DNA from: a virus
IMG/VR virus record: IMGVR_UViG_3300042691_009281
Span: 1 to 24,483 of that record
Strand: one strand, 5' to 3'
DNA: 24,483 bases
In this document: positions 348-22,876 of the stretch, one piece after another
How positions within the stretch are numbered: position 1 is the first letter of the stretch
How the letters are laid out: each line of letters opens with the position of its first letter
Position numbers and translations under genes: made by a program
The notes under the pieces: model-generated
Database searches by the model: none
Seen by the model: the letters and a program-made list of their open reading frames with translations, nothing else
What the model was told of the DNA's origin: nothing

Positions 348-2813
348 ATGCCAATTCAATTTCAACCTTTTGTAAGTTTATATTCAGATCCTGGTATAAA
401 AGAAATTAGCACAGATCTAAAAACTAGATATTATGAAAATCTTAAAGCAAAAGATGCATTAGCTAGTGCATTAGATAACATGGTAGCACTAGCTCCTGAT
501 GAGGAAACTAAAGCTCAAATTAGAGCAGAAGCAGATGCTGCATTAGAACAAATATCTAAAGATCCTGCTCTTGAAAATCAAGGAATGCAAATATATAATG
601 CTGTAAAAGGATTTGATAAAAAATACAGTCAAGTTAAAAAACAGTATGATACTGCTATGGCTGAACTTCAAACTTTAGAACAGAAAAAAGAAAAAAGAGA
701 AATTGAACCAGAATATTATGATTTAATTAAAGCTAACTTTTTTAAAAATTATAAAGGAGTTAAATTTGATGATAAAGGTAGATTAATACAAGGATCTACT
801 TTTAAAGCTCCTACTTATTATAACTCAGTAGATATTAATGAAAAATTACTTAAACAATTAGGTATATTATCTCCTGAAGAAACTAAAACAGATATTGAAT
901 CATTTCAACTTAGTCCAGATGGTACTACTTATATAGCTAAAAAAGGCAATACTGAAACTAGTATTTCAGTAGATAGAGTAAGAGATGCTTATAATGCTAT
1001 TCTTCAAAGTCCAGATATTGATAGATATATTAATGATAAAGTTGATAAAAGATATAATTTATTAGAAGGTATAGATTCTAAAACAAATTTATTACAGTCT
1101 TTTAATAATTCAATTGATATGTCTAATTCTGAATATGAAAATCAGATTAATAAAAATAATGAATTAATTAATTCTACTATATCTATTTCAGATAAATTGC
1201 AATTGCAAAATCAAAATAAGCAATTGAAAGAAGTTATTGATGCTAATAATCTTAAAAAGAAAACTAATACAGGATTTATAAATCAATTAAATCAAGGTAA
1301 AGAAAATGAAGCTGAAATGCATATTAAATCATTAATTAAAGATGGTGAATTATCTGCATATAAACAATACGGAGATGCTAAAGCATTTACTTCTAAATCT
1401 TATACTGAAGGAATAGATCAGACTTATAAGAATCTTAAAGCACAAGAAGCTTTAGATGCTAATAAATGGTTAATGGAAAACCCAGAGTTTAAAGCTCAAG
1501 GGATTGTAACTGCAGCACAATGGGGTGGAATTGATACAAAAGCTAAAAAAGAAAACATAGCTATGTATCAACAAACTGGTAAAGAGTTGCAAAAAGTTTT
1601 AGATGACGAAACTGCAGCTATTGAAGCACAAAGAGCAAAAGGAGTCAAAGAAGAAAATATAATTCGTACTTTAAGTCCTGAATTAATTAAACAATATGAA
1701 TCTCAAATTCAAGGAGCTAAAAATGCTGCAGAAGATGTTCAAGCTCAAATAGATGCAGCTTTAAGAAAAACTATTTCAGATGCTGATATTAAATCTATAG
1801 TAAAAGATAAAAATGCATTAATTCTTTTAAAAGAAATGTATCCTGATTCTGCTACTAATAGTTATGAATTAATAAATAAAATTATTAATACTTTTGACAA
1901 TGAAGGGGATCAAGATTATTTAGATTTTAAAACTAAATATACTGAAACATATGGAATAGGATCTTGGAATAAAGAAGTTAAAGTATTTAAAGAAGTAGGT
2001 CCTGGAGAAAGAGCTGCTTCTGCTGGAGAAGCATTAGCAGGAATTAACCAAGAAAAAAAATTATATACAGATATTGGTTCTGAAATAAAAAGAAATTTAG
2101 ATGAATTTATTAGTGATAAAATTGACCCTGCTTATAAAGAAATTAAAGAATCTCCAATGTTTGATTATGGAGCTATTACATCTGTAAGTAATGATCCTGT
2201 AGAAGTTAGAAGATTAACTAATGCAGTTAATAAATATTTTACAGATAAACCTATAGGTGAAAATTTAAAAGTTACAGTTCAAGGACCTCCAGGAGATGAT
2301 ATAGGAAATACTGAATTTAATGATGCAGGTATTGCTGAAATAACTGGTAAAGATTTAGCAGGATATACTGCTAAAAAAATAGGATATTCTCCTATTGCAG
2401 GAAGTAAAGGATTATTTCAAGTTGAATTAAGTAAAGGTGGAGATCAAAGTAGCAATATTGTAGTATTAATAGATGGGCAACAATTAGCTGGTACTGAATT
2501 AGATAAAGCAGTTAATAGACCTGAAGTTTCACTAGCTCGTTTAATTAATAAATTAGATCCTAGAGATGTTGATTCACAACCAAGAACTAGAACTATTAGA
2601 ATATATGATGATCAAGGTAATATTATTCCTAATTCTTTTGCAAAACTTAATGTAAGAACAGGAGAAACAGGCAAACCTGAAGTTGCTGTTGAAACAAATG
2701 TAAACGGAATAGTAACTGTAGATCCTTATAGACCTATGAATAGTAGAAGTATAATTGATGGGTTTTCTGCAAAACATGCAAATGGTAATCCTATATATGA
2801 ATTACTTGATTAA
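348..2813 (+). CDS. 821-aa coiled-coil protein, probable virion cargo protein
   Basis: This open frame runs from an ATG one base after the previous stop to TAA. No Shine-Dalgarno sequence precedes it, so initiation is probably by coupling or by an A/T-rich leader. The product is largely helical and charged, with likely coiled coils near residues 90-125, 260-305 and 410-480. The C-terminal part (about residues 630-800) is richer in beta-forming sequence, including an RTRTIRIYDDQGNIIP stretch. I see no signal peptide, membrane segment, catalytic motif or cysteine. It lies directly upstream of two giant proteins in the same tight operon. In crAss-like phages this neighbourhood encodes proteins packaged inside the virion and ejected with the DNA. 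The cargo role is therefore inferred from gene order and composition; a tail or internal scaffold role is possible. Confidence 0.8.
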   Translation: MPIQFQPFVSLYSDPGIKEISTDLKTRYYENLKAKDALASALDNMVALAPDEETKAQIRAEADAALEQISKDPALENQGMQIYNAVKGFDKKYSQVKKQYDTAMAELQTLEQKKEKREIEPEYYDLIKANFFKNYKGVKFDDKGRLIQGSTFKAPTYYNSVDINEKLLKQLGILSPEETKTDIESFQLSPDGTTYIAKKGNTETSISVDRVRDAYNAILQSPDIDRYINDKVDKRYNLLEGIDSKTNLLQSFNNSIDMSNSEYENQINKNNELINSTISISDKLQLQNQNKQLKEVIDANNLKKKTNTGFINQLNQGKENEAEMHIKSLIKDGELSAYKQYGDAKAFTSKSYTEGIDQTYKNLKAQEALDANKWLMENPEFKAQGIVTAAQWGGIDTKAKKENIAMYQQTGKELQKVLDDETAAIEAQRAKGVKEENIIRTLSPELIKQYESQIQGAKNAAEDVQAQIDAALRKTISDADIKSIVKDKNALILLKEMYPDSATNSYELINKIINTFDNEGDQDYLDFKTKYTETYGIGSWNKEVKVFKEVGPGERAASAGEALAGINQEKKLYTDIGSEIKRNLDEFISDKIDPAYKEIKESPMFDYGAITSVSNDPVEVRRLTNAVNKYFTDKPIGENLKVTVQGPPGDDIGNTEFNDAGIAEITGKDLAGYTAKKIGYSPIAGSKGLFQVELSKGGDQSSNIVVLIDGQQLAGTELDKAVNRPEVSLARLINKLDPRDVDSQPRTRTIRIYDDQGNIIPNSFAKLNVRTGETGKPEVAVETNVNGIVTVDPYRPMNSRSIIDGFSAKHANGNPIYELLD

Positions 2814-8800: not shown

Positions 8801-9298
8801 TATCAAGTTGAAAGAGTAACTGAAAATTCAATTGATGTTAGAAGTACAAAAACAGGAGATACTGATGTAATATCTAAAGCAGATTATAATGCAGAATTAG
8901 ATGCTTTAGAAAGTAAACCAACTCAACCAGCACCTGCTACTCAACCTGTAGTAAAAGTAATTCCTAAAGAAGCTTTTGATATTGCTCCTGAAGTATTAGC
9001 ACAAATTAATGCTGAATTTGGATTAATAGCAGAGGTACCAACTGCTATATCAACTGAACCTACTGTTGAAGAACTTAATAAAGAACTTGTAGGTAGTATT
9101 ACAGATCTTTCTCAATTGTTAGGAACTGTTCCTGATGTTACTCCATCACCTGCAACAACCACTTATGTAAATGCAGGAAAAGGAGAAAATTCCATTGAAG
9201 TTAAGACTAGTTCTAGTAAATTTGCTAGAAAGAACCGTAATACTAATTTTGTAGATCCTAAACAGGCTAATACAAAAGGTAGTAATACTGAATGTTAA
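2831..9298 (+). CDS. 2155-aa giant virion cargo protein with hydrophobic glycine-rich segments
   Basis: One uninterrupted frame runs from ATG, 17 nt after the previous stop, to TAA. The N-terminal 60 residues are Pro/Thr/Ser-rich. Gly/Ala-rich hydrophobic segments occur near residues 118-143, 196-222, 340-362 and 466-488 (for example ILIGAIVGGGTGAV) and could touch or cross a membrane. A long coiled coil spans about 1090-1253. An acidic Pro/Ser/Thr/Glu linker follows at about 1255-1305 and coincides with a GC-rich patch. A beta-rich region at about 1345-1780 contains DHWKTVPI near 1445 and resembles beta-barrel domains of crAss-like giant proteins as I remember them. The C-terminus is low-complexity and ends TEC. 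That last residue is the only cysteine I find in the protein. No enzyme motif is recognised. From context it is probably packaged and ejected with the RNA polymerase encoded next, perhaps forming part of the DNA-entry conduit. That role is inference. Confidence 0.85.
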   Translation: MAEPNTTSALDALTNLAKQPTSPVPDTPPETPKSISDSPALTALFKGINVTPTVEKPGYGTNPLDTATKTIDLTNTYTDPLSSYLEYKVPMNPYFNFNDVRAQNQSTAEKWMRGLTKAGVTAFGAVVENTLGTLAGLGELASGGSFYDNAVGRNVDKMNNFMQEYMPNYYTEAEQNMGLMESLGTANFWADKVANGVGYSLGSIATMMLGVGEVGLLAQTAKYGVRGIGALTVKAVKLGDKMEDGFKLANMYKAGKIVETGQKADKTLALAAKFARIEKASQRLAVATNMSLAESAVEAREAQRGFIESEIAKWESENPGLEMPADVEEGINESARAVGNLTFAINLPITSLTNVAMFGNMMKGSALGKKAINELSEKEAKEGAIRTFTEAGTESANKYIKAFNKAKAFKPTLGNMLEEGIQEGSQFAASELSKKYYEDKFDNGIGDMSKALSESLSATFGTKEGLENILIGAIVGGGTGAVQSLVGAEKRLKEAKSANTTKALEILNSGGLANPLANLEDAAAFVTAVNNMNAAATAGDYTQANLERKNLIASVAMRLDRVGGLEYGLEQLEDAKGLSEEEFKKAFGYNTNKTLAEQTGGMSVSEVVDEVKSGIEKTIQRKNDIKDLIGKYTPNEGLVSRMLRSMGESEDSKYREALASEIEQKYLRSFTRAATDLDTLDEQIDDAIDNLFTGLLNTGNININKKEFKDQFAVKIKNGTVEIDDKGDIKVKGLSTATVTDNTLEKINEIVSHFDKSVTNPLDKEKLIKNLININRLIAKRSGAVDAINNFMKSPESRDLFLEAQMLKEQADNKKKINNTAKAVIENAETSDDIKGNIPNDASLEIKALAEDAIAELEEKEEQALKDFSGMTLEELEKINEDEQSPINLKALLAAKQQKLEKEAFKDLNNIGQPQEIGQTVNAPNMFQAEEEALEILSEIERATIGEIRVSAANGRIGPIFTIQGREYINTFEESTDAIIRDADGNITGVKLLDAVTGNYVTWFVQDENVEPTEQSEKEAAIVDAIAYAILLNKASVRSDKTVTPAQAKEINDAKVEAITEDFNKIQELEEAPVTEKGRDPIANLNKTKEMSDAELRIQIETLKQDLVEIDETIQYLTQLGEEAGFTPKEIKEDGQIIKLKQQRKTIIRYKTAKIKELRNRKADKNAQEQNAVLQEDEINTLKNVINAEIESLKEEIKKQEELRTAYENIVNGIYGENQNIEEAQQEIKNINKKIGVIKAKITKRLSKLDALTPTEDETAEIERRTENSNSPEGITSTPEREIVEDTDLDPGTPSEEVRMDAGINLTEAEELELARQQAQEDLANLALYGTEEPSAETPIEEPAIVVEEVGLSDVRLIKGQFETDNNFNVIVDADGNPVTNVIKNPVTGVFTPLTIKVDGEVISVNPELLSNPEIAKAGSKVKFKVLDNSEYWKNTKDSIAPEDHWKTVPIMVYVETYGVDMPITLLQAYTESNNEGEKGASRKNIVELHAKGLTPMATVSEKRFQLGPKGNIVNTVTRDGQRFFSPISTLGDNVQFAVVGKLGFKYNGTDPEIGSYLENKSTAGFISGQVVAVITDPNGDKQVLALSTKDMTEAGLTAATNAILEVNANKFKAIVGTSTDSEVDESTDLTDPNLLIVDVLPTGEAFFKFYSVEAKMMVKVDLQNLMRALADQPYKFSFVTPTFEDGNVKYQSVTRPDADYALVDIKQKFNDTVKTKKYQVDVNQPINQPYTSPINGQTYPSYIDYLSSNENFTGEPISQGTNAILRTDSFGDPFFDIGLKFEDLGVQEEVDIKTKEEIATNNVVVPTAKVTTQPATPTPISDIERRRQEDLKNAVLFLINDGTYGGSRDFSLAEYFDIQTKENGEKYNVNNWKYINVNGTGVFFLKEEGTAYIVPNNSYAKNPRVVKIFFNKGTQRLDLSSPNINTPNLKMSAEKDNVNYDSLLQEVQSVLQPLDAELTALEGGKPSPSSDKKADDLKRGDIITFQLEEYQVERVTENSIDVRSTKTGDTDVISKADYNAELDALESKPTQPAPATQPVVKVIPKEAFDIAPEVLAQINAEFGLIAEVPTAISTEPTVEELNKELVGSITDLSQLLGTVPDVTPSPATTTYVNAGKGENSIEVKTSSSKFARKNRNTNFVDPKQANTKGSNTEC
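6641..6740 (+). other. GC-rich patch encoding an acidic Pro/Ser/Thr linker
   Basis: I count 50 G/C in these 100 bases, against about 25 in 6401-6500 of the same gene. Codons rare elsewhere in the window cluster here (CCC, ATC, ACG twice, CTC, GTC, AGG). The patch encodes roughly residues 1271-1303 of the 2155-aa protein, a Pro/Glu/Asp/Thr/Ser-rich linker after the long coiled coil. It also contains a 6-bp inverted repeat (GAGATC at 6674-6679, GATCTC at 6692-6697). The reading frame is intact. It may be recently acquired or under a different constraint from its flanks. Confidence 0.6.
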
Positions 9299-9310
9299 TA
9301 ATATTTATAT

Positions 9311-12300
9311 ATGAGTTTTTGTCCAAACCTAGCAGATAAAAAGATTGCAGAACAGTTTAATAAACTTATTGAACTTAATAATGAGAATATTGCATATTAT
9401 TTATGGGATAAATATCAAGGAGAAGTTCCTAATGAATTCTATAAAAATAGTATTATAACAGCATCTGTAGGAGGAACAGTACAATATACTCATAAAATTA
9501 TTAATAGTCTTTCTAAAGCATTAGAAAATAGAAAAACTATTAGAGTTAGCACTGCTGATGAAATTACTAATATTCGTAAATATTTAAATGGTCAAGGTGT
9601 TCCTACTGAACAAGTTGACTTAATGTTAGAGTTTTTAAAAACTCAAGGTAAAACAGAAGTTAAAACATCTGAGTTAATTACAGATATGTTAGCAGCATAT
9701 TCTTATGCTGTTGAAATTAATATTGCTACAGAAACTGCAAAAAGTGCTAATAGAGTATATGGATACACTCCTAATGTTGATGTAAATAGTTTATATATTG
9801 AACAAAACAGTGTTTTTAGAGATTTTGTAATTAAAGATAAAAATGGTAATTTATTAAATCCTGTAGCATATAAAACAAGAGAAGAAGCTGAGGAAGTATT
9901 AAAAAACATAGGAAATAAACCTTCTCAATATTATTCTAATTTAACAGTTCCAGGAGGAATTAACTACACAGAACAAGAGATTGCTACACCTGCTATAACT
10001 CCTTCTATTAAAGGTCATGCTCAGTTTGCTACAGATAAAGGTATTGGATGGTTTAGAAGTGATGAACCAAGTCCTTATTCCAATACAATGGGTCTTGATG
10101 TAAACGCAATGACAGATGAAGAATATAATAATTACTTAAAAAATTATCCTAAAATTCGTAGAATACTAGAAGTACAATCTGATTTATTTCAGAAAGGTAG
10201 AGATAAAGAAAACTTATTAAATAAAAGAGAGGAATATAGCAGTTCAGATGCTTTTAAAAATGATGAAATAGGTAGAACAAGAATAACTAGAGAACAATTT
10301 GATGCTATAGATGGAAAAATATTACTAAACTCTACTAAAGAGTTTTCGTCATCTTTAGAAGTAGATAATGCAAATTTATACAAAAAAGAAAACCCAAAAG
10401 AATCTACAACGGCTATATATAAATACCAAAATGGTAAAAGGGTAGCTATGTACAATTTATCCTCTAATACATTTGTATCTATACAGTATGGTAAAAGAGA
10501 TTCTACCGAAAACCAATTTCTTCAACTTCTAAACAAAGACAATAATTGGGTAACATTCTTTGTTAAATCTATTATTCAAGATAGTGTTAAACAAGGATAT
10601 GAAAAAGTATTATTTCCTTCTGGTAATACTGCTAGTAAAGTTGAAGGACATACTACTCTAGAAGAGTTTAAGAAGCAAAAACAAGATAGGATTAAATTTT
10701 TACAAGAAGAGCAAAAAAGACTAGAAAAATTACCAGACGGAATAGAAAATTTTGAAGATATAAGTTATGATGATATGGGGAGACCTGAAGGATTTGTAAC
10801 TGTAAGTAAAGAAGAAGAGTTAAAAAAGAATTCAAGAGAAATAGATCAACTTAAACAAGAACTTGCAAGAATAGATAAAGAAGGATTTGGTGCTTTAAGA
10901 CCTATATATAATTTCTATGAAAATACTGTAAGAAATATTCTTAAAAAACAAGGATTTGAACCTAGAGAATTTAAAGATGAATATGGTAATACTTGGAATG
11001 AAATTACTTTAACTAATCCAAGAGTTAATAAACTTGCTAATTCTAGTATTGCATTTAGAACTCAAAAATCTACTGCTACTGAAACTATTAATAAAGAAAA
11101 AGCTTTAAATTGGTTAGAGCAAAGATTTCCTGGAATGTCTGTAGAGTTCTACGACATGGCAAAGAATATTGGTAATGGTCAAATTCACGGATATGTAGAA
11201 AATGCTGCTGTAAAACTTTGGAGTAGTGCTGAAGTTGGAACAGAATATCACGAAGCTTATCATATAACATTTAGAACAATGTTATCAGATTCTCAAAGAA
11301 TTGAATTATACAATGAAGCTGAGAAAGAATATGGTAAACCTACTGATGCAGAGATTGCAGAGATTAAAAAACAATTCCCAGATATTTCTGATAGAGAAGC
11401 TAATAGATTAGTTCTTGAAGAAAAAATGGCTGAAGGGTTTAGAGAGTATGTACTTACAGAACAGGAGTCTGGTAAAACATTATCTGGTAAACTTAAATCA
11501 TGGTTTAAAAATCTATGGAATTGGATTAAAGCAATGTTTAGTGATAACTTAAGCATTAAACAAGTATACTCTTTAATTGAATCTAACTCTTTAAATCGTA
11601 ACATATATAAGCGTAATGTATTTAGAAATCCTCAACAATTTCAAGGAAACAATACAGCTAATATGTATAGAGAAGGATTTGGAGATGTCAAATTCCAAGA
11701 AACTTTGTCTGTATTAGAAACTGTTTTTATAGAAACTAAAAATAGTAATCGGTTTAATAAAAAAGAATTTGGTTTAAACGCAAGTTTAGGAATTGGAGAA
11801 AATAGAGGATTAATCGTAAATAAGTTGGTTACAGATCATTTGTATGTAACTACTGATGGTTCAAAACTTACTACAGCCGCAGCATTAGAATTGCTTAAAG
11901 CTGAAATTGCTTACGAAAAGAATCCTACAGAAGAAAACGAACAAACAATGGTAGATTTAATGGACAAGTATAATGTCGATATTAAAGATACTGATGCTAG
12001 TGGTAGACCAGATCCTACTTATAACTTTAGATCTGCTATTATTAATGTATGGGATACATGGTTTACACAAAAAGATCCTGCAACTGGTAACTTAATTATA
12101 GAAGGTTGGAGAGAATTTTTATTATCTAAACTAGCTGATAGAGGTTTAGTACCTACTACTCGCAGTAAAGATAAACAACAAGAGCTACGCGAAGCTGTTA
12201 TTAGAGATATAGAAGATGAAGATAATCAAGATCTTGAAACATCTTATGAAGAGATAGATGCTCACATTGAAAAGATTTATGGGAAGAGTAGTTTAGAAAA

Positions 12301-15300
12301 ATCTCCTTCTAAATCTTTTACTGCTAAACTTAGAAATTTCTTAGCTAGTATTTATAGTCCTATTCCTAATAGTTTTGGGGTAACAACTTACATGGATAAA
12401 AATTATATCTATGCAGAACTTATTAGTATAGTAGCTGGATCTCAATCTTATGAGCAATTGCTAGCAAAAATGAAGAATCATTCTCAATTTAAACCACATT
12501 TAAAAAGAGTATATGAATTCTTAAGTTCTTCAAAAAGAACTAATTCAGAAAAAGCTATGTTCTTTTCAGGATTTAGTTTAGCATTTACTGGATTTGTATT
12601 GCATAAAACTAGAGAGGCAGGTAATGCAAGATTTGTAGATGTTATTAATGCTAATAGAAAAACAGGATTAGAGAACCAATTAGATAAATGGAATCTTAGT
12701 GTAGTAGATAAAGGTGTAAATTCTGATAGAGCATTATATAACGAATCTATTAAAATGACAGTAGATGCAGATGGTAATAATGTAGAAGCAACTACTAGAT
12801 CTATTAAAGAAGATAAACTTAAATCTGCAGTTAACTCTTTCATGTCTGTACAAGAAGACTTATATGGAAGAAATCCTGCAAGATTAATAACTGTAGGAGA
12901 AGATATACATCCTACTACTAAACAACTTGCTCAAACTATTTGGGATTTAGGAATGCATTTAGGAAGTTCTGCTACACTTTTAGAAACTCAAAAAGCATTA
13001 CAAACTATTATCAATAGTGAAGAGGGAATCTTTATTCAGAATGATAAAGGAATAATGGTTAACAAGAAAGGAAGTGATCTTGCTAAAGAGTTATTCCAAA
13101 ACTTAAGATTAATACTTAATAACCTTGGTAAATATGAAAAACCAGGTAAAGGTCAATTCTTAGGTAAACTATTAGAGGCAAAAGCTAATCCAGTTAAAAC
13201 TTATATTCAAGCTGAAACTTCTAGTGTAAGAATATTTGCTGAAATTAATTCATTGTTTACACCTCCAGCTCCTGAAAGTGTTGTAACATCTGATGGTAAA
13301 TCTAAGTATCCTGTTAATCTACAAAGCCATTTAGTAGAAATTGTTAATACTATTAAGAATGGTGGAAGTTTAGCAGCAGATTTAATTAAAGTATATCTTC
13401 AAGATCCTTCAATAAAAGGGGGAGAAAAAGAAGAATTTGGTAGCATACTTATTCAACATTTAAAAGGTAATGCAGAATTTTTAGGAGATTTTTCTGTAGA
13501 AGATTTTGATGCTATTAAAGGTGATAGAGTAGATGATGCTATTACTTATGAAGACTTTAGTGAATTTGATAATTATGTAGTTCGTATTAATAACTACATT
13601 AATGGGGGTAAAGAAAAAACATTTTATGTAGCTGTACCTGCACAAGCAGATCGTAGTAAATATTCTTTAGTTGCTGTCCCTAAACTTTTAAGTAATAAAT
13701 ATAATGTACTTGATAGAACTAAAAGTACTGTAGAACTTAAACAAGAACTTGTTAAAAGATTAATAATACAAGATTTATTACGTGTAGCAGAAGCTAAAAG
13801 ACAAGTTAAAAATTATTTAACTGGTAAAATTCCATTCTCTGATTTAATTCAAGGATATCATTATGATGAAAAGACTAATAGAATTGTAGATGAAAACGAT
13901 AAATTATTAGGAAGAGCATTTAAAGAAGAATTTTTTCAATTAACTGCTGTTAATGAAAAAGGAGAACAGATTGTTAAGAATATATCCTTTGGATTAAATA
14001 ATGAAAAAATAGACGGGCATGATAGATTAAGTGATGTAATTGGAAAATATGTAAAAGCTACTAAAGAAGAAAGATTATCTAATCCTGGACTTAGAGAAAT
14101 AGATAATTTACTTGCAGGAATGACTGATCAAGTAATTTCTTATTTTGATAGAAAAGCAAGTGAGTTACAAAAAACTTTAAATGATAATGATCGCATGTCT
14201 GATATTGGATTTGGACATGTTAAAGGAAATAAAGATGAATTCTTTAAAAACTTTATTTTTGAAGAGGCAATAGCAAGACTAGAGTTAATTAAACTATTCC
14301 GTGGTAATAGAGCATTATTTAAATCTACTGAAGAATTTTACAAACGTATGGGTCACTTGACTACTCCTGGAATTAAATTATTAGTTAAAGGAGATCTTGC
14401 TACATCCCCTGAATATGGAATGTTTGCAGAATACAATGAAACTACATTGTATGATTTAAAAGGAAACTTACAATCTACTGGACAAGCTAAAAGACAAAAT
14501 GCTGTTGCAGATAATATTTATCAAGGATTAGTTAATGCAAAAGATTCTAAAGGAAATTTTTTATATTCAGAAGAAGAGGCTAGATCTATATCTGATGCAT
14601 ATCGTCCTGGAGAATACGATGCTACTGACGCTCAAGCATGGATTAGTATTGATATGTACAGAGCAATTCAACAAGGATTAGGATTGTGGGATGATATAAA
14701 TGATGAAGCTGCATATAAAGCATATAAAGCAGCGCCTGTAGGTCAAAAGAAATTTGTATATCAAGAAGGATTTGTTCCTGAAGGATTTAAAGTAGGAGAT
14801 GCTGTTCAAATAAAACCTATAAAACCTTACTACGAAAAAATTTCAAACAGTGCTAATGTTACTCATGCTATTATGGAGAAGAACTCTTATAATATTCTTT
14901 TAGAAGAGTATACAATTAACTGGCCTAGAATGAATGATCTTCGTCAAAGAATGGAAAGTGAAGAAGTATATGCTGGATTAGAACCTGTACATGTTGTAAA
15001 TGTTGTATCAGGTAAAAAATCAGGAAGAAAAGCTCCACATACTGTTCAAGGAATTAATGGAGAATATACTGGAGTATTTGTAAGTAAAAATAATTCTAGA
15101 GGATTACGTTTCCCACAAACTATTCCAGATGCTAAAGAAAATCCAACAGTAGCACTTAATAGGCAGATTAAAAAGAACATGCTTGCTAATGTTCAAGATG
15201 ATACTATTTATACTATTGATGCTGGATTAGAATCAGCTACAAAAATATCTGGAGCAGAACTTAAAGAGTTAATGCATTCTGCTATATCTGAAAAAGTTTA

Positions 15301-18217
15301 TAGAGGTATTGATAGGGTTACTAAACAATATGGTTTAGATAAACTTATGAAAGCCAAAGAATCTGGCAATATTAAAGAGTTTAATAAAATTAAACTAGAA
15401 GTACTAAAAGCAGTAAGATCTTTATTAGAACAAAATATTAAAGAGTCTGATCTTCCATCTAATTATTTACGTGCATTAGATATTGTATTTGATGAGACAG
15501 GATCTCCAAGATTTACTATTCCATTAGATCTTCCTTTTTATAATAAAAAGTTTGAATCTATATTAATGTCAACTTTAAATAACCAAGTATTTAAACAAAA
15601 AGTATCTGGTTATGAAGCTGTACAAGTAGCACAGATTGGAGGATTTGCAACTGATGAAAATCGTGAATTAGAAGAAGAATTAAAGTTCTATCAAATTGAT
15701 GGAGATCGTCTAGTTCATGCTGAGATTATGGTACGTCCAGATGTTCTCAGAAACTTTAATCTTCCTGAAGGTGAATATACTTTAGATTCTATTCCAGAAG
15801 AATTACGTCGTGTTATAGGTTATCGTATTCCTAACCAAGATAAAGCTTCTACAGTAATCCTTAAGATTAAAGGATTCTTACCTGCTAATTATGCAAAAGC
15901 AATTTTAGTTCCTGGTCAATTAACCAAGTTGATGGGATCTGACTTTGACGTGGATAAAATGAATTTGATGTTCCCATCTATTAAGCAAATTAAAAATGCA
16001 GATGGAACTACATCATTTAAAAAAGATAGTCCAGATTATAATAATTTAAGATCATTAGATAAAGTATCAGATAATCAACTTACTAATATTGTATTAGATT
16101 TAATGGAGGCAGTAATGTCTAATCCTGTACATTTTGCAGAGACATTAAGTCCTTTGGATGATAAGACTCTTCCAAATTTAGTTAAGGAAATTAATAAAAA
16201 GAACCCAGAACTTGCTCAAACTTTTGACTTTAACGATTATAGAACTGAAGCTGATGCAATTGGAAGAAACTTGATTGGTAATACTATGAGAGGTATTTGG
16301 GCTAATCAAGTTGCGGGTGCTAACGTAGCATGGCATGGTGTAGTTAATGTTAATGATAAATATGCTATTAAAGTAATTAATGCATCTGGGGAAATTAAAA
16401 CTTTTACTAAGTTTATTAAACAAACTAAAGATGAAACTGGTAAAGTCAGGACTTTAGATAAAGCAGGTTCTATGTGGTTATCTGCTGCAGTAGATGCTGG
16501 TAAAGATCCTATTCAATACGAGTTAAATGATAATGTAATTACTGCACCTGTACGTCAATTGTTTATGGCTACATTCCCAGATGACTATGCTAATAAAATG
16601 GGAACAATGTTTTTGAATCAACCTATTATTAGAGATTTCATTAATATTTTCCAAACTAAATATAATAACGATCTTACTCAGATTAAAAATGCATATTCAG
16701 CAGCAGTAAAATTATATGGGGGAACACCAGCAATGTCTCCTCAAGATATTGATATTACTCCTATGAATCTTGTAGAATTACAAAATATAATGAAAGAAGG
16801 GAGAGATAAGACTGTACAAATACAGTTTATGAATAACTTCTATAAGTTTTACAAAGCTGGACAATCTATTCAAAGATTTTACAAAAGAATTACTCCTGAT
16901 GCTATGGATGGTATGAATCGTTTAGGATCAATTAATTCTTACTTTGATAAAGCAGAAGCATTTAATACTGAATCTCAATTAAATAATGATGAAGATGTAA
17001 TTCTTTATGGACCTGATTCTTCTACTAATGTAGTAGATCAATTTATTGGAAATAATTCTGTATATAAATATCAAAAAGCTTATAACGATCTTTTAAAATT
17101 TGGATTAGAATTTGGATCTGTTATGTTCCCAGCAAGAGGATCCGCAGCATTTGAAAAAGCTAAATTTAATATTAAAAAATTATCAGGACAAAAAGAACTT
17201 ACTCCTGAGATGCATCAATTGATTGATTACAATTTGATGTTTTTAATGCTTAGAAAACCAGGATCTCCATTAAGAAAATACTTAGAAGGTCAAAGACTTA
17301 ATGATAAATACTTTAAAAAAGATACCAATATAGTTACTAAATTAGAATCTGTAGCTAAAGATTTTCCTTCTATATTACATAATCCTTTTATTGCTAATCT
17401 ACAAAAAGATGTTACAGGAGATACTGCTGAAACATTCTATGGAATTAAATTTGATAATTCATTTTCTATGACTCGTGCTCAAAAAGAGCAGATGACTAAT
17501 GGATTGAGAAATCTTATTTACAACCCATTAATGTATATTAAAACTGACGGGCCTGTAGAACTTGATAAAGATGGAGTTCCAGTAGATTCTACAATTAAAA
17601 CATCTTTTTTACGTATTAAATCTTTAGGAATAGATTTGATTGTAAACAATTTTGCAGTTAATGCTTTTAGACAATCTTCTCAATCTTATCATGATCTTAT
17701 TCCAATTGAGTATTTAACTCAGATTCAAAAAGTTGAAGGTCATGAACCTACTAGTATTGTGCAATTCTTTGAAAAAGAAAAAGCTAAATTAGAAGATCCT
17801 AATTATTTTAATATGCAAGATTTGCATGTTTATATGCAATCATTTGGTAAAATGGTAGCAGGAGGCAAACCTTTACTTAAAAGATATAGCAAAAAAATTA
17901 ATTTTGATGCTTTAGATAGAACAGGACAAACTGAATTAAAAGTAGAAAATGCTTATCAAGAATACATAGTAGTAAGAGATGAAAATAAACTGTCTAGATT
18001 ATATAAGAAATTAAACAAAAATACTTATATTGCAGTTAAAGAATTGTTTGCTCGTAAGAAAGTATATGGTATTGAAATAGGGGAAGGAGATGAAAGATAT
18101 AGAGTAGAATTAAATGCTATGATGGGAGATAGTGAAAACCTTCTTAACTTTGAACCTGCTACAAATAATGCTGGAAGTCCTACAGGAGGATTTTTAAGCT
18201 GTAAAATTTCAATATAA
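9311..18217 (+). CDS. 2968-aa crAss-like single-chain virion RNA polymerase with polyvalent and zincin domains
   Basis: Predicted DNA-dependent RNA polymerase. The key evidence is D2211-F-D2213-V-D2215-K, a DxDxD metal-binding motif, preceded about 37 residues upstream by R2172-I-P2174-N-Q. This matches the order of RAPTLH and NADFDGD in the beta-prime subunit of cellular RNA polymerase and the DxDxD motif of crAss-like phage polymerases. Upstream, KPIKPYY (1835-1841) and KNS (1857-1859) are candidates for the first double-psi barrel lysines. The N-terminus (MSFCPN) leads to a polyvalent-type domain (about 234-438), then a coiled coil, then a zincin module (H647EAYH651). At 2968 residues it is longer than the ~2180-aa phi14:2 enzyme, mainly because of these N-terminal domains. 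The only cysteines I find are C4 and C2964. It starts 12 nt after the previous gene and has no Shine-Dalgarno sequence. In relatives this polymerase is packaged, ejected and transcribes early genes; that role here is by homology. Confidence 0.9.
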   Translation: MSFCPNLADKKIAEQFNKLIELNNENIAYYLWDKYQGEVPNEFYKNSIITASVGGTVQYTHKIINSLSKALENRKTIRVSTADEITNIRKYLNGQGVPTEQVDLMLEFLKTQGKTEVKTSELITDMLAAYSYAVEINIATETAKSANRVYGYTPNVDVNSLYIEQNSVFRDFVIKDKNGNLLNPVAYKTREEAEEVLKNIGNKPSQYYSNLTVPGGINYTEQEIATPAITPSIKGHAQFATDKGIGWFRSDEPSPYSNTMGLDVNAMTDEEYNNYLKNYPKIRRILEVQSDLFQKGRDKENLLNKREEYSSSDAFKNDEIGRTRITREQFDAIDGKILLNSTKEFSSSLEVDNANLYKKENPKESTTAIYKYQNGKRVAMYNLSSNTFVSIQYGKRDSTENQFLQLLNKDNNWVTFFVKSIIQDSVKQGYEKVLFPSGNTASKVEGHTTLEEFKKQKQDRIKFLQEEQKRLEKLPDGIENFEDISYDDMGRPEGFVTVSKEEELKKNSREIDQLKQELARIDKEGFGALRPIYNFYENTVRNILKKQGFEPREFKDEYGNTWNEITLTNPRVNKLANSSIAFRTQKSTATETINKEKALNWLEQRFPGMSVEFYDMAKNIGNGQIHGYVENAAVKLWSSAEVGTEYHEAYHITFRTMLSDSQRIELYNEAEKEYGKPTDAEIAEIKKQFPDISDREANRLVLEEKMAEGFREYVLTEQESGKTLSGKLKSWFKNLWNWIKAMFSDNLSIKQVYSLIESNSLNRNIYKRNVFRNPQQFQGNNTANMYREGFGDVKFQETLSVLETVFIETKNSNRFNKKEFGLNASLGIGENRGLIVNKLVTDHLYVTTDGSKLTTAAALELLKAEIAYEKNPTEENEQTMVDLMDKYNVDIKDTDASGRPDPTYNFRSAIINVWDTWFTQKDPATGNLIIEGWREFLLSKLADRGLVPTTRSKDKQQELREAVIRDIEDEDNQDLETSYEEIDAHIEKIYGKSSLEKSPSKSFTAKLRNFLASIYSPIPNSFGVTTYMDKNYIYAELISIVAGSQSYEQLLAKMKNHSQFKPHLKRVYEFLSSSKRTNSEKAMFFSGFSLAFTGFVLHKTREAGNARFVDVINANRKTGLENQLDKWNLSVVDKGVNSDRALYNESIKMTVDADGNNVEATTRSIKEDKLKSAVNSFMSVQEDLYGRNPARLITVGEDIHPTTKQLAQTIWDLGMHLGSSATLLETQKALQTIINSEEGIFIQNDKGIMVNKKGSDLAKELFQNLRLILNNLGKYEKPGKGQFLGKLLEAKANPVKTYIQAETSSVRIFAEINSLFTPPAPESVVTSDGKSKYPVNLQSHLVEIVNTIKNGGSLAADLIKVYLQDPSIKGGEKEEFGSILIQHLKGNAEFLGDFSVEDFDAIKGDRVDDAITYEDFSEFDNYVVRINNYINGGKEKTFYVAVPAQADRSKYSLVAVPKLLSNKYNVLDRTKSTVELKQELVKRLIIQDLLRVAEAKRQVKNYLTGKIPFSDLIQGYHYDEKTNRIVDENDKLLGRAFKEEFFQLTAVNEKGEQIVKNISFGLNNEKIDGHDRLSDVIGKYVKATKEERLSNPGLREIDNLLAGMTDQVISYFDRKASELQKTLNDNDRMSDIGFGHVKGNKDEFFKNFIFEEAIARLELIKLFRGNRALFKSTEEFYKRMGHLTTPGIKLLVKGDLATSPEYGMFAEYNETTLYDLKGNLQSTGQAKRQNAVADNIYQGLVNAKDSKGNFLYSEEEARSISDAYRPGEYDATDAQAWISIDMYRAIQQGLGLWDDINDEAAYKAYKAAPVGQKKFVYQEGFVPEGFKVGDAVQIKPIKPYYEKISNSANVTHAIMEKNSYNILLEEYTINWPRMNDLRQRMESEEVYAGLEPVHVVNVVSGKKSGRKAPHTVQGINGEYTGVFVSKNNSRGLRFPQTIPDAKENPTVALNRQIKKNMLANVQDDTIYTIDAGLESATKISGAELKELMHSAISEKVYRGIDRVTKQYGLDKLMKAKESGNIKEFNKIKLEVLKAVRSLLEQNIKESDLPSNYLRALDIVFDETGSPRFTIPLDLPFYNKKFESILMSTLNNQVFKQKVSGYEAVQVAQIGGFATDENRELEEELKFYQIDGDRLVHAEIMVRPDVLRNFNLPEGEYTLDSIPEELRRVIGYRIPNQDKASTVILKIKGFLPANYAKAILVPGQLTKLMGSDFDVDKMNLMFPSIKQIKNADGTTSFKKDSPDYNNLRSLDKVSDNQLTNIVLDLMEAVMSNPVHFAETLSPLDDKTLPNLVKEINKKNPELAQTFDFNDYRTEADAIGRNLIGNTMRGIWANQVAGANVAWHGVVNVNDKYAIKVINASGEIKTFTKFIKQTKDETGKVRTLDKAGSMWLSAAVDAGKDPIQYELNDNVITAPVRQLFMATFPDDYANKMGTMFLNQPIIRDFINIFQTKYNNDLTQIKNAYSAAVKLYGGTPAMSPQDIDITPMNLVELQNIMKEGRDKTVQIQFMNNFYKFYKAGQSIQRFYKRITPDAMDGMNRLGSINSYFDKAEAFNTESQLNNDEDVILYGPDSSTNVVDQFIGNNSVYKYQKAYNDLLKFGLEFGSVMFPARGSAAFEKAKFNIKKLSGQKELTPEMHQLIDYNLMFLMLRKPGSPLRKYLEGQRLNDKYFKKDTNIVTKLESVAKDFPSILHNPFIANLQKDVTGDTAETFYGIKFDNSFSMTRAQKEQMTNGLRNLIYNPLMYIKTDGPVELDKDGVPVDSTIKTSFLRIKSLGIDLIVNNFAVNAFRQSSQSYHDLIPIEYLTQIQKVEGHEPTSIVQFFEKEKAKLEDPNYFNMQDLHVYMQSFGKMVAGGKPLLKRYSKKINFDALDRTGQTELKVENAYQEYIVVRDENKLSRLYKKLNKNTYIAVKELFARKKVYGIEIGEGDERYRVELNAMMGDSENLLNFEPATNNAGSPTGGFLSCKISI
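10010..10624 (+). other. Domain resembling a recurrent phage polyvalent-protein domain, within the RNA polymerase
   Basis: Residues about 234-438 contain GHAQFATDKGIGWFRSDE, then LEVQSDLFQKGR (V288-QSD-291, KGR 295-297), then W413 and a helix leading to GYEKVLFPSG (G429 to G438). From memory, large phage polyvalent proteins carry a domain whose core reads roughly EIQSDxxQKGR, a Trp, a helix with A..GyD, and a strand ending in tG. The order and spacing match that pattern, except that the gap between GR and the Trp (about 115 residues) seems long. The biochemical function is unknown to me. The match rests on motif memory rather than a search. Confidence 0.5.
11150..11600 (+). other. Zincin (HEAYH) metalloprotease-like module within the RNA polymerase
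   Basis: H647-E-A-Y-H651 is a HExxH zinc-binding motif. It is preceded by a strand-like segment (AAVKLWSSAEVGTEY), as expected for the edge strand of a zincin. A helix 52-57 residues downstream (LEEKMAEGF, E703/E704/E708) could supply a glutamate third ligand. An amphipathic helix (KSWFKNLWNWIKAMF, about 728-743) and an SLNRNIYKR stretch follow. Function as a protease, for example processing cargo proteins or the host envelope, is inferred. It could also be a structural or inactive domain. Confidence 0.65.
15818..15979 (+). other. RNA polymerase catalytic double-psi barrel with DFDVD metal-binding motif
   Basis: Residues 2170-2223 run from GYRIPNQ through a beta-rich stretch (VILKIKGFLP, AILVPGQLTKLMG) to SDFDVDKMNLMFPS. 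The three aspartates D2211, D2213 and D2215 are predicted to hold the catalytic magnesium, and R2172 aligns with the beta-prime arginine that contacts the NTP in cellular enzymes. The fourth motif position is valine, where cellular enzymes have glycine. Downstream, about residues 2320-2340 (RNLIGNTMRGIWANQ) resemble another region conserved among crAss-like polymerases as I recall them. Confidence 0.88.
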
Positions 18218-18226
18218 AAATAAATT

Positions 18227-21200
18227 ATGGGGTGTGTAACTATAACTACTGATAGCAATGGATTTGTAAAAGAGTCTCCACAAGCTACTAATATGATTAG
18301 AATGATTGATTCTAAATTAGATAGAGGAGAACCTATATCTTCTAAAGATATAATTACTACTTTACAAAATAGCTATTTAGTTAGGAGAGGAGGTATTAAT
18401 AAAGTAGAAGATAAGTCAGGGTTAAGTAAAAACTTATACCAAATAATGTTACTTAATGGAATTCTAATGCTTAATTATAAAGCATCAAAACCATTATTAA
18501 ATATTATTGCTAAACCTCTTGGTAAAACTAAAAAACCTATAGAAAACTATTTAGGGGCTCCTGCTAATCCTAATTATGAATATGAAGTTGCTGTTAATCC
18601 TACAGTATTATCAGAATTAAAATCTAAAACAGCTTTTACACATACAGATCATACTATTAATTATGAGTTTAATTACAATAAATTAGATGAATCTACATTA
18701 ACTCCTGTAGCACAACAACTTTTAAAAAGAGAAGCTACTCCTACTCCTTTGGGTAAATTATCTAAAGTTAAACAAAGTATATTAGAAAAATACGGGGAGT
18801 TAGTATTTAGAGAGGCAGCAGTATTAAATAATTTTAGTAAACAAAATTTAGATTCAATTGCAGCTAGATTACAAAATACTAGTGAAAGTAAACCTTTAAC
18901 AGAAAGTGAAAAACAAATTGATTATCAATCTGCTAAAGATCAAATTATTAAATTGCAATCTGTATTTAATTCTGTTGGTATACCAGTTAAAGTAGTAGTA
19001 GATCCTAAATTAGAAGTTAAAGGGGATGTTACTAAAGATGCTAATGGTCAAATTACTCTTAGAATTAATCCTCTTAAAATGACTGAAGATACTCACATTC
19101 ATGAATTCAGTCATATTCTTATTGAATTGTTGGGAGAAGATAATCCAACAATTAAAAGAGCAATTGAAGAAATTAAAGATACAGAGTTATACAGTCTTGT
19201 ACAAGCTAAATATCCTGAATTAACTGGATCAAGATTAGATTTTGAAGTATTAGCTACTGCTATGGGATTAGAAGGTGCTAAATTTAATAGAAAGAATCCT
19301 TCTAAAATTCAAACTATAGTTAATAGAATACTCAGAGCAATAAAAGAATTCTTTAATATTGAAACAGATACTGCTGTTCAAGAATTAGTATCTAAAATGT
19401 TAGAAGGCAGATTAGATAGAAAAGAATTTAGTGGGGAGTTTGTAGAAGGTGTTCGTAGAAGTAAAACATTAAAAGAAGAGACAGACCCATTTAAAAAGCT
19501 TGTTAATGATACTCGTCAAATTGTATATGATAGTATTCAAAAAGAAGAAAGAAATATTGACTCTAATATTAATAAACAAGCAGCTTTAGATCGTCTTAAA
19601 TTATTACAAGCAAGATTAAAAGAAGTAAATCAAGTAGAAGATTTTGTAGATTTTGTTAATTATACTGCTAGTATTGCTTCAAGAGCTAAAGAAGTTTATG
19701 ATGAAATCATGAGAGATTATCCTGATGATGTTTTAAAGAGAATGTCACATGATGAGAGAATGGTTTTAATGAATAAAATATTTGCTGTAGGAGATTGGGT
19801 TGGACAATTCTTTGGAGATGGTAAAAATAACAGTAATGTTATGCAAAGAATTTTATCTGCTATTAAAAATAAAAAAGATTTACTTAAAGATACAGATCCT
19901 GCATATCAGTTTTTAGATAAATTAGAAACTAAATTAGGACAATCAATTCTTAATATTACAGGACTTAATCAAGACTATATTAAGTTTGCTATTCCTATTC
20001 AAGCTGATAATCTTTTAGAATATCATACCCCAGAAATTAATACTCAACTTGAAATTTTAATTGCTAATATTGAAAATAATAAACGTATTGTAGGTCTTGT
20101 AAAAGATGATGAATATTATGATTTAATGAAGCAGGAAAAAGATGGGAAGATTACTAAAGCACAACTTAAAGAAGCGTTAATTGCACTTAATATACAACAG
20201 TTAAAAAATAAAGAAATAGGAAGAGAAACTCTTATAAGAGAGTTAACTGAAGCACAAACTGATAAATCTGCATTTAGTTATATGCTAGATCCATTAGTAT
20301 ATTCAACTCAACCTACTTTACAATTATTTGCTTTATCTATTAGAAACATGTATCATTCAGCTAATGATGAAGTTCAAAATTTTATTAATGAATTTAAAGA
20401 AGGGTATGATAAATTTAAAGCAGTAAAAGGATCAGATATTAATCCTAATACATTTAATGAAGATTTATTAGAAACTCAAGTTCATTATGTCTATAATCCT
20501 CAAACTAATAAAAAAGAAAAGATTTCTATTCTTACATTAGTTCAACCTTTAAATGTAAATAAATATCGTGAAGATGAAAATGCTATGTATGAAAAATATG
20601 CAAAGCAATTTAATCGTCCAGATACTGAAAAAGAATTAGAAGTATGGAAAAAAAGTGCAGATGCTAAAAAATATTACAGAGCTGTAGGAGATTGGTATCG
20701 TACTAATGCAGTGATTAATCCTAAAATTAAAACTATTTACGATAATCTTGCTAATAGTTTACAAGTTAAAATTGCTAAACTTGCTAATGTAAAAAACACT
20801 ACTAAAGATCAAATTGAAATAGATTATCTTGAAGCAGAGATTGCTAGAATTAAAGGGGATATGCTTACATATAAATCCGAAGCAGGATATTATAAAGCAA
20901 AAGCATACATGCCAGGAGCTACATATTCTAATCCTAAGTTTAAAGCAATGAGTGGTGCTACATTAGAATACTACAATTTTATTTTAGATAAATATAAAGA
21001 TTTACAAAAGAATGTATTAGGTGTAAAATCTAATCTTATAATTAATCCTTGGGATGATTTCTCTTATATGATGCCTACAATTAGATCTGAAGGATTAGAG
21101 AAAGTACAAAAAGACGGAGCATTTGGTGCTGCAAAAGATTTTGCAAAAGATACTTATGATTATTTTAGTACTGACGTAAATTACGGGGATCTTATTAATC

Positions 21201-22876
21201 AAAATAAAGATACTACTAAAAAGTTAATTCCAATCTTTCACACTAATGCTGTAGATGAAAAACTTGTAAGTAGAGATATTGCTACATCTATGATTCACTT
21301 TGCTGGAATGGCTTATTTATTTAGAGCTAAAAGTAAAGTAGCAGGATCTGTTATGTTAATGAGAGAAATGGTTAAAAACAGAGAAGTGTTAGAAATAAAC
21401 TCTGCTGGTAATACCATTATTAATAGAGGAGCAGAAATGCTAGGATTTGTTAAGCATCAACGTAAAGATGGATTAAGTAATAACTTTAAACATCTTTCAG
21501 AGTTTATTGATAAAGTATTTTTTGGGGAAGAAGAACTCAAACAATCTTTTAATTTTAGAGGTAAAGAATTATCTGCTAATAAACTTGCTAATAAGTTTGC
21601 ATCTTATACAGCTCTTAATACTTTATCATTTAACTTATTACAAGCATTTAACCAAGGAGTTGTAGATAATGTTAAACTATTAGAAGAAGCAGTAGCTGGA
21701 CAATATTGGAGTATGTCTAATTGGTCATGGGCTACTAAAACATATCATTTAACTAAAGATGGTGGATTAGGATCTGCAAAAGATTATCAAGCATTTACCC
21801 CTGAAACCAAAATTGTACAAGCTATTCAGATGTTTGATGCATTAGGAGAAAGGTTTAATAACGCTACTAAAAAAAGAAGTGGTAATAAAGTTCTTAGAAG
21901 TGCAGCTCATATCCCTATGACTTTACAACAATTAGCAGAACATGAAACTGCTGTTAAAAGAATGCTTGCTTTAATGGATAGTTATCGTGGTAAACTTAAA
22001 GATGCATCTGGAAATGTAATTAAAAATGCTGAAGGTAAAGATGCTAATGTATATGACATATTAATTAAAGATCCAAAAACTGGTAAATTTATAATAGATT
22101 CAAAAGTTGCTAATTTTAATATTCAATCTTTTAGAAATAAATTAGCTGGTATAACTAAGAAAACTAACCAAATTAAACTCGGAATGGATGATGCTATGCT
22201 TCAGAGAAGATGGTATGGTAAATTAGTTATGTTATTTAGAAGATATTTTATCCCATCTTTAAGAAGATATTATGGGCATACAGGATTAAAAGGTGGAATA
22301 CATATGGATCTTGAAACTAATACAATTAGTGAAGGTACATTAATTACTCTTAAAAGATTTATAACTGAGTCTTATGAAAATGGATTCAATTTTGTAAAAG
22401 TTTTTAAAATGATGTCTCCTATGGAGCAACAAAATATGAGAAGAAACTTTGTTCAATTTGGATTCTTAACTCTTAGTATGGTAATTGCTTATCTAGTATT
22501 AGATGACGATGATGATGAAGATTATGCAAGTCAATTTATGGCTTACCAAGCTTTACGATTAGATTCTGAATTAACTCAGTTTGCTAATCCTGTAGAATTT
22601 GTAAGATTAGCGTCATCTCCTACTGCAGTTATTCGTCCACTTATGAAAATTATTGAATTAGGTGGACATATTATGACTCAAGAAATCCCATATTTTGTTA
22701 CTGGAGATACAGATGGAGTATTCTATGAAAGAAAATCTGGTATACATGAAAAAGGAGATAGAAAAACTGCTGCTAAAGTTGAAAATATTATTCCAATACT
22801 AAGAGGATTGTTTAAAAGTATGGATCCAAAAACTGCTTCTCAATTCTTTAATGCTCCTATTGGATCTGCTCAATAA
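18227..22876 (+). CDS. 1549-aa giant virion cargo protein with zincin motif and C-terminal membrane segment
   Basis: This open frame starts with ATG 9 nt after the RNA polymerase stop and ends with TAA just before a terminator. The N-terminus is MGCVTI and C3 is the only cysteine I find. A zincin module lies at about residues 240-410: a beta strand (ITLRINP), H292-E-F-S-H296, a possible third ligand E340, an amphipathic helix (ILRAIKEFF, about 367-378), then an EGRLDR stretch. The middle (about 420-1000) is long, helical and charged. Near the C-terminus a Arg/Tyr-rich stretch (RRYFIPSLRRYYG) is followed by one hydrophobic segment of about 18 residues (1408-1425) and an acidic run D1426-D1430 with E1431 and D1432. 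This suggests membrane insertion or docking. It is last in the cargo operon, so it is probably ejected with the polymerase. Role and protease activity are inferred; no specific family was identified. Confidence 0.85.
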   Translation: MGCVTITTDSNGFVKESPQATNMIRMIDSKLDRGEPISSKDIITTLQNSYLVRRGGINKVEDKSGLSKNLYQIMLLNGILMLNYKASKPLLNIIAKPLGKTKKPIENYLGAPANPNYEYEVAVNPTVLSELKSKTAFTHTDHTINYEFNYNKLDESTLTPVAQQLLKREATPTPLGKLSKVKQSILEKYGELVFREAAVLNNFSKQNLDSIAARLQNTSESKPLTESEKQIDYQSAKDQIIKLQSVFNSVGIPVKVVVDPKLEVKGDVTKDANGQITLRINPLKMTEDTHIHEFSHILIELLGEDNPTIKRAIEEIKDTELYSLVQAKYPELTGSRLDFEVLATAMGLEGAKFNRKNPSKIQTIVNRILRAIKEFFNIETDTAVQELVSKMLEGRLDRKEFSGEFVEGVRRSKTLKEETDPFKKLVNDTRQIVYDSIQKEERNIDSNINKQAALDRLKLLQARLKEVNQVEDFVDFVNYTASIASRAKEVYDEIMRDYPDDVLKRMSHDERMVLMNKIFAVGDWVGQFFGDGKNNSNVMQRILSAIKNKKDLLKDTDPAYQFLDKLETKLGQSILNITGLNQDYIKFAIPIQADNLLEYHTPEINTQLEILIANIENNKRIVGLVKDDEYYDLMKQEKDGKITKAQLKEALIALNIQQLKNKEIGRETLIRELTEAQTDKSAFSYMLDPLVYSTQPTLQLFALSIRNMYHSANDEVQNFINEFKEGYDKFKAVKGSDINPNTFNEDLLETQVHYVYNPQTNKKEKISILTLVQPLNVNKYREDENAMYEKYAKQFNRPDTEKELEVWKKSADAKKYYRAVGDWYRTNAVINPKIKTIYDNLANSLQVKIAKLANVKNTTKDQIEIDYLEAEIARIKGDMLTYKSEAGYYKAKAYMPGATYSNPKFKAMSGATLEYYNFILDKYKDLQKNVLGVKSNLIINPWDDFSYMMPTIRSEGLEKVQKDGAFGAAKDFAKDTYDYFSTDVNYGDLINQNKDTTKKLIPIFHTNAVDEKLVSRDIATSMIHFAGMAYLFRAKSKVAGSVMLMREMVKNREVLEINSAGNTIINRGAEMLGFVKHQRKDGLSNNFKHLSEFIDKVFFGEEELKQSFNFRGKELSANKLANKFASYTALNTLSFNLLQAFNQGVVDNVKLLEEAVAGQYWSMSNWSWATKTYHLTKDGGLGSAKDYQAFTPETKIVQAIQMFDALGERFNNATKKRSGNKVLRSAAHIPMTLQQLAEHETAVKRMLALMDSYRGKLKDASGNVIKNAEGKDANVYDILIKDPKTGKFIIDSKVANFNIQSFRNKLAGITKKTNQIKLGMDDAMLQRRWYGKLVMLFRRYFIPSLRRYYGHTGLKGGIHMDLETNTISEGTLITLKRFITESYENGFNFVKVFKMMSPMEQQNMRRNFVQFGFLTLSMVIAYLVLDDDDDEDYASQFMAYQALRLDSELTQFANPVEFVRLASSPTAVIRPLMKIIELGGHIMTQEIPYFVTGDTDGVFYERKSGIHEKGDRKTAAKVENIIPILRGLFKSMDPKTASQFFNAPIGSAQ
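19070..19470 (+). other. Second zincin (HEFSH) metalloprotease-like module
   Basis: H292-E-F-S-H296 of the 1549-aa protein is a HExxH motif after a strand (ITLRINP) and the THIHEFSHIL helix. A glutamate 44 residues later (DFEVLATAMG, E340) could complete a glu-zincin site. The module then has an amphipathic helix and an EGRLDR stretch, the same order as in the zincin module of the upstream RNA polymerase gene. Catalytic activity is not shown. Confidence 0.68.

Follow-up and report, generated by a model that had tools for sequence, protein, structure and literature searches.

Why should giant viral proteins encoded one after another carry cysteine (Cys) only at the ends where one gene product gives way to the next? 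The question is raised by IMG/VR virus record IMGVR_UViG_3300042691_009281 (positions 1 to 24,483; this whole stretch of 24,483 nucleotides is called the window below), whose plus strand encodes three giant proteins termed here A, B and C, B being a virion RNA polymerase (vRNAP). The plus-strand products of the window contain 4 Cys per 7,607 residues, one at each inner end of the series A, B, C. A previous sequence-only reading had listed the Cys counts and coordinates of the five plus-strand products, which were exact on recount, and had suggested that cargo threaded unfolded through the tail avoids internal thiols, while the terminal ones link successive proteins head to tail by a disulfide or a shared metal. 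From positional base composition, the complete plus-strand genes, four in number, should hold about 83 TGY codons (Poisson P(<=4) = 1e-30), and the probability that all four Cys fall by chance <=5 residues from the four inner ends is 8e-11; chance or composition as the cause of the pattern is ruled out by these values. The minus-strand genes of the window, with 7 Cys in 528 amino acids (aa), agree with the earlier statement that the genome is not Cys-poor overall. We consider it probable (roughly 0.8), judging from the sequence evidence below, that the terminal Cys pairs form head-to-tail interchain disulfides which would replace the peptide bond, and that A-B-C would leave the virion as a single covalent chain.

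The three proteins belong to a known group, the crassvirus RNA polymerase (RNAP) cargo module, and are homologous to gp47, gp50 and gp49 of crAss001 and to g067, g066 (PDB 6VR4) and g065 of phi14:2. Searches with B by tblastn matched crAss001 gp50 (E 1e-23; 24.9% identity over 19% of the query) and phi14:2 g066 (E 2e-15). Like the crassvirus cargo, B has the DFDxD motif of the two-barrel RNAP core, and the G, D, F, D and D columns of this motif and its context are invariant in 15 crass-like sequences. Homologues of A and C flank B, the C-family profile matching 138/140 of the downstream and the A-family profile 49/56 of the upstream candidates. B showed no homology to the N4-type (Schitoviridae) vRNAP, N4 gp50: its phage matches, among the matches listed, were crass-like, and those of N4 gp50, among the matches listed, were N4-like phages. 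Apart from a PHROG, itself of unknown function, that matched A, no confident domain was returned by Pfam or PHROGs for A, B or C. The cargo homologues of crAss001 and phi14:2 are known in virions (PMC10172136; phi14:2 record annotation), are thought to cross the tail partly unfolded and, in crAss001, must unfold partly to pass constrictions of <50 A; the crAss001 virion has disulfides elsewhere, in gp57 and the tail hub (PMC10172136).

The terminal Cys are shared by these relatives (given below as Cys position/protein length). In its pure form the pattern is seen in the isolate phi14:2, with C1797/1797 in A, C3 and C2179/2180 in B and C3 in C. Of the relatives found, L001 is the nearest (40% identity; L numbers denote loci) and has C2089/2092 in A, C4 and C2457/2458 in B and C3 in C, and crAss001 has C2339/2341 in gp47, C5, C1334 and C2404/2412 in gp50 and C5 in gp49; from the cleavage sites read in its sequence, the N-terminal tryptic peptide of gp50 begins CITTNSTIEELAAK and its C-terminal one is ICGANTLYEL, while gp47 ends in CNS and the N-terminal peptide of gp49 is CAIIPQVR. 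The corresponding phi14:2 peptides are GEDSNTIC and (M)ACK between A and B, and QECK and (M)SCK between B and C. The masses of gp47, gp50 and gp49 are 262.5, 276.9 and 154.5 kDa (PMC10172136), near 694 kDa in sum. DAC15 and the uncultured cr85_1 display the same terminal layout as phi14:2 and crAss001.

To compare split and fused junctions, we used 198 crass-like RNAP loci, made non-redundant by clustering at 90% identity of the core. Their architecture was assigned with A- and C-family profiles that were blind to Cys and seeded with the window's own proteins; start codons were taken as the first ATGs, the contigs are mostly metagenomic, and the IMG/VR sample is skewed to sequences near the seeds. 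The A-B-C string is variously cut into genes (with a slash for each cut: A/B/C, AB/C, A/BC) or encoded as a single open reading frame (ORF), ABC. There are two Cys per split junction. At split A/B junctions a Cys lies <=15 residues from the C-terminus of A in 46/49 and from the N-terminus of B in 47/49 loci; at split B/C junctions both the C-terminus of B and the N-terminus of C have one in 137/138. The outer chain ends show a Cys in 0/92 (N-terminus of A) and 1/160 (C-terminus of C) cases, and the A side of the boundary with the upstream cargo gene never does. At the immediate upstream boundary, in a count that takes in partners missed by the A profile, Cys were found on both sides in 56 loci, on neither in 45 and on a single side in none. 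Co-occurrence of C-terminal and N-terminal Cys at the same junctions, for which the sequence-only reading had proposed a test, is thus seen across the loci, with the pairs lost at fused junctions. An order-wide rule, by which a terminal Cys pair substitutes evolutionarily for a peptide bond, with a coupler at every split that is lost upon fusion, is likely.

The few departures from these counts are of several kinds. Some Cys lie beyond 15 residues, at -24 (L002) and -18 (L252) from the C-terminus of A, at -16 from that of B (L210) and at +20 from the N-terminus of C (L165). In L010 (crAss002 gp33, NC_055828.1, 13243) the start appears to have been called about 32 codons early, and a later Met gives MSC, like the relatives. 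The A/B break of L255 is without both Cys; the two ORFs there overlap but are in different frames, and the break looks like a frameshift in a fused gene. The lone outer-end Cys, that of L228, is followed by another giant protein of 1308 aa, which starts MSSC, and is therefore taken as an extra junction. The variant chain of this locus (13813-21239) consists of AB, a protein of 1167 aa bearing Cys at each end and the 1308-aa protein with its N-terminal Cys, and shows that the chain is able to gain a link.

A tree of 187 RNAP cores, computed with FastTree from one domain, calls for a minimum of 14 changes at the A-B join and of 11-12 at the B-C join. In the tables based on this tree, the Cys is present at the ORF end in 137/137 split and 0/33 fused B/C junctions and in 47/48 split and 0/56 fused A/B junctions. 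Independent contrasts on well-supported branches were as predicted in 9/9 cases for B-C (p=0.0039) and 12/12 for A-B (11 when L255 was drawn; p=0.0005), with none against. The pair was thus lost repeatedly with fusion, and homologues without terminal Cys, which the sequence-only reading had named as evidence against itself, are the fused ones, which matches the prediction of linkage. The Cys content of whole chains behaves in the same manner. Among 15 complete chains without a junction (single ORF ABC; median length 5,472 aa), 12 have zero Cys. The minimum is 2 in 33 chains with one junction, where exactly 2 is the mode (17 chains), and exactly 4 is the mode in chains with two junctions (18 of 27). 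One two-junction chain has 2 Cys, the number that would be expected of L255, whose A/B break lacks them.

Two simpler readings bear on these distributions. Cys might merely be tolerated at flexible ends and purged elsewhere, with no linkage involved, and the variation in sequence of the terminal tails would fit. Such tolerance is highly improbable given outer ends at 0/92 and 0/159 (the extra junction of L228 set aside), a presence of about 99% at junctions, the pairing of 56 both, 45 neither and 0 discordant, and Cys that follow the fusion state in 21/21 independent contrasts. The terminal Cys might alternatively give homodimers of each protein, as a single terminal Cys often dimerises in vitro. 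We hold this to be very unlikely: the need for dimers would outlast fusion, yet both Cys vanish at fused junctions, and the number of Cys tracks the number of junctions.

The pairing does not depend on gene order. B and C share a strand and A is encoded on the other one in crAss001, DAC15 and cr85_1, yet the Cys pair is still kept, which makes the pairing a property of the proteins and not of the gene junction. Likewise, the C-terminal Cys of B and the N-terminal Cys of C are kept where C is distant from B by about 4 kb (L006), 2.6 kb (L129) or 6 kb (L239). These arrangements bear on the idea that a nucleotide signal at gene junctions, such as start or stop context or translational coupling, happens to encode Cys. 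The terminal codons are close to stop and start codons and TGT is dominant among them; however, TGC is also used (43/373), the distance to the ends is variable (-1 to -24 and +2 to +20), genes on opposite strands or kilobases apart still have the pair, and no Cys is ever found on the A side where the upstream cargo gene adjoins. With displaced and opposite-strand genes and both Cys codons in use, we rejected this reading, which retains next to no probability. As a negative control, in L015 (cr108_1), L103 and L131 the RNAP frame is broken at or beside the catalytic GSDFDxD codons (24473, 19411 and 10504, respectively), and no Cys pair is found there; these breaks are most likely introns.

Alignment of split and fused B-C sequences places the B tail and the C head that carry the Cys in a stretch that is variable and gappy in the fused proteins. 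Besides the terminal Cys nothing nearby is strongly conserved, and the tails are rich in K, E, N and D and poor in aromatics and His. An AlphaFold model gave no confident structure for the variable stretch that separates the conserved end of B from the start of C; the prediction for the fused B-C boundary (L049, 600 aa, 6 sequences) has a predicted local distance difference test score (pLDDT) of 47 and neither supports nor refutes linkage. The sequence-only reading had described the C-terminal tails of A and B as alike, which did not hold up: tails from the same genome are no more similar than shuffled pairs (n=36, p=0.53), and a permutation test for similarity of the B and C heads within a genome was also negative (p=0.38). 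A minority of phages have a CPN(x)nW head motif on B or C, following no rule (L020 B, MAFCPNINSEEW; L098 C, MSHCPNINSPEW).

The composition of the tails also bears on whether a shared metal, one option offered by the earlier reading, or a third partner connects the chains at their terminal Cys. By sequence alone a disulfide and another thiol-dependent bridge are indistinguishable. A metal is nonetheless unlikely, as each terminus offers one Cys, His in the tails is at or below average with no other conserved residue near the Cys, and two-part chains often total exactly two Cys, below the needs of a usual Zn site.

Away from the junctions Cys is avoided. The inner parts of B-containing ORFs have a Cys content of 0.087% (median zero) vs 1.07% in other ORFs of >=300 aa of the same loci. 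Cys alone is so depleted in the chain, with an internal rate of 0.06x that of other proteins of the same loci; W (0.66x) and H (0.70x) come next. In TAG-recoded lineages (L018 and several of L192-L214) internal Cys are clearly more frequent in the chain (median about 0.2%) and terminal pairs are retained. Unrelated ejected proteins avoid Cys as well. The vRNAPs of N4 (3,500 aa), LIT1 (3,398), R7L (3,616) and phi50-12 (3,024) have zero Cys, as do their companion ejection proteins (N4 gp51 and the proteins just upstream of the LIT1, R7L and phi50-12 vRNAPs), T7 gp15 and gp16, P22 gp7, gp20 and gp16, and the tape-measure/RNAP protein of P23-45 (5,002 aa). The T7 fibre, P22 spike and P22 portal, which are not ejected, do contain Cys. 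The avoidance of internal thiols in ejected proteins, inferred earlier for the window, therefore looks general for proteins passing the tail. The ejected T7 gp14 (L268, 1729-2319) has a single Cys at residue 2. Paired terminal Cys turned up in the crass-like chains alone.

In the mechanism that we propose, A, B and C would be one functional string of about 5,500-6,700 residues, covalently continuous during packing and ejection. Each gene break would be bridged from the Cys at the upstream C-terminus to a Cys near the start of the downstream protein, at about residues 3-7. Internal Cys would have been purged because the chain would be threaded partly unfolded via portal, tail and oxidising periplasm, where stray thiols could mispair or jam. 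The disulfide would form in the assembled or released virion and survive portal, tail and periplasm, and the reducing host cytoplasm would then open the bonds and free the polymerase. Phages with a single ORF work uncut, so bond opening would not be essential, and continuity would be the essential property. We infer from sequence the disulfide nature of the link, its presence in the virion and its coupling role in ejection, possibly also in packaging.

Several points weigh against this proposal. Some hosts are gut anaerobes, for which oxidation before release is uncertain. Three-part chains could cross-pair between the tails of A and B and the heads of B and C; specificity would therefore have to come from a putative non-covalent docking. 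Strict purging is not universal either: crAss001 gp50 has the additional internal Cys1334, and AB or B of some gut and TAG-recoded lineages contains 7-26 internal Cys. Many internal Cys in homologues had been named beforehand as a finding that would speak against the avoidance, and some gut lineages (7-26) do have them, but terminal pairs are retained there, which makes the terminal pair the stricter rule.

It is possible, though we think it less likely, that the disulfide serves co-packaging and stoichiometry, so that A, B and C enter the capsid as a unit, and not ejection. The same sequence evidence fits, fusion or linkage would both set a 1:1:1 ratio, and the cargo is located together in a capsid zone (PMC10172136). 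On the other hand, disulfides are in general unlikely in the reducing cytoplasm during assembly, and the exclusion of Cys extends to the ejected proteins of N4, T7 and P22, which have no coupler. Transit is thus the likely stress, and ejection is favoured over packaging as the role of continuity.

In two-chain (A-B) secreted proteins, an interchain disulfide ties the translocated chain to its carrier and is reduced in the cytosol. The likeness to the disulfide-linked string proposed here is in working only, a disulfide taken across membranes and opened in the cytosol, and implies no homology: two-chain proteins arise by nicking of a precursor with an intramolecular bond, whereas here separate gene products would be joined serially, interchangeably with fusion. 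N4 vRNAP, T7 gp15/gp16 and P22 gp7/gp16/gp20 resemble A-B-C in being large, free of Cys and ejected through a narrow tail; unlike the crass-like chains, the N4, T7 and P22 proteins examined have no paired terminal Cys. The tape-measure-fused vRNAP of Thermus phage P23-45 (PMC10770324) is, like the crass-like chain, long and without Cys, but is a single ORF of a long-tailed phage, unlike the split chains. In contrast to our reading, the crassvirus literature describes proteins of the gp47, gp50 and gp49 type as separate RNAP-associated proteins. Neither the Cys distribution nor a linkage is mentioned in the crAss001 atlas, the N4 vRNAP structure preprint, the reviews of N4 RNAP, ejection proteins and Crassvirales, or the P23-45 paper. 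A literature search, whose scope did not include the original phi14:2 RNAP paper (10.1038/s41586-020-2921-5), found no paper on such linkage; earlier notice is possible. What thus appears to be new is the principle of coupling by a terminal Cys pair that can replace a peptide bond, and be replaced by one, throughout a virus order.

The features of the window are collected in Table 1. The 821-aa protein directly upstream of A is probably a separate cargo or ejection protein without a coupler Cys facing A. In three Intestiviridae a separate upstream cargo protein has a lone Cys near its C-terminus with no obvious N-terminal partner (last rows of Table 1). At the contig end, a convergent minus-strand gene (24033-24482) encodes part of a 5'-3' exonuclease (PF01367). 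Erv/ALR sulfhydryl oxidases, when searched for, gave 0 matches in the 24,483-base contig and none in control genomes; since the window is a fragment, this permits no statement on the redox enzymes of its phage.

Table 1. Features of the A-B-C chain and its surroundings; positions refer to the window unless a locus is named
Feature	Position	Strand	Description
Partial protein, 114 aa	2..346	+	C-terminal portion of another protein without Cys
821-aa protein	348..2813	+	Cys-free; directly upstream of A; same position as crAss001 gp46
Protein A, 2155 aa	2831..9298	+	First chain element; sole Cys is the last residue; homologue of crAss001 gp47 / phi14:2 g067 (position and profile)
A Cys2155, C-terminal residue	9293-9295 (TGT)	+	Left half of putative A/B coupler; conserved at split A/B junctions
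Protein B, virion RNA polymerase, 2968 aa	9311..18217	+	Cys at 4 and 2964 only
B Cys4	9320..9322	+	Right half of putative A/B coupler
B catalytic motif DFDVD	residues 2211-2215, about 15941-15955	+	GSDFDVD context
B Cys2964, fifth from end	18200..18202	+	Left half of putative B/C coupler
Protein C, 1549 aa	18227..22876	+	Last chain element; Cys3 only, outer end without Cys; homologue of crAss001 gp49 / phi14:2 g065 (position and profile)
C Cys3	18233..18235	+	Right half of putative B/C coupler
Upstream cargo protein, L011	32144-34714		Lone Cys, C856/857
Upstream cargo protein, L010	2548-4218		Lone Cys, C550/557
Upstream cargo protein, L017	4882-7152		Lone Cys, C747/757

The order and manner in which a giant RNAP passes through a tail that is too narrow for it is an open question for crassviruses and N4 (PMC10172136, PMC12633501). 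If A-B-C is one covalent string, a fixed delivery order would follow, together with a reason for the avoidance of Cys in ejected proteins. The rule would predict which cargo proteins travel together and would separate real protein ends from introns or frameshifts, and the absence of Cys may flag ejected proteins that are as yet unknown.

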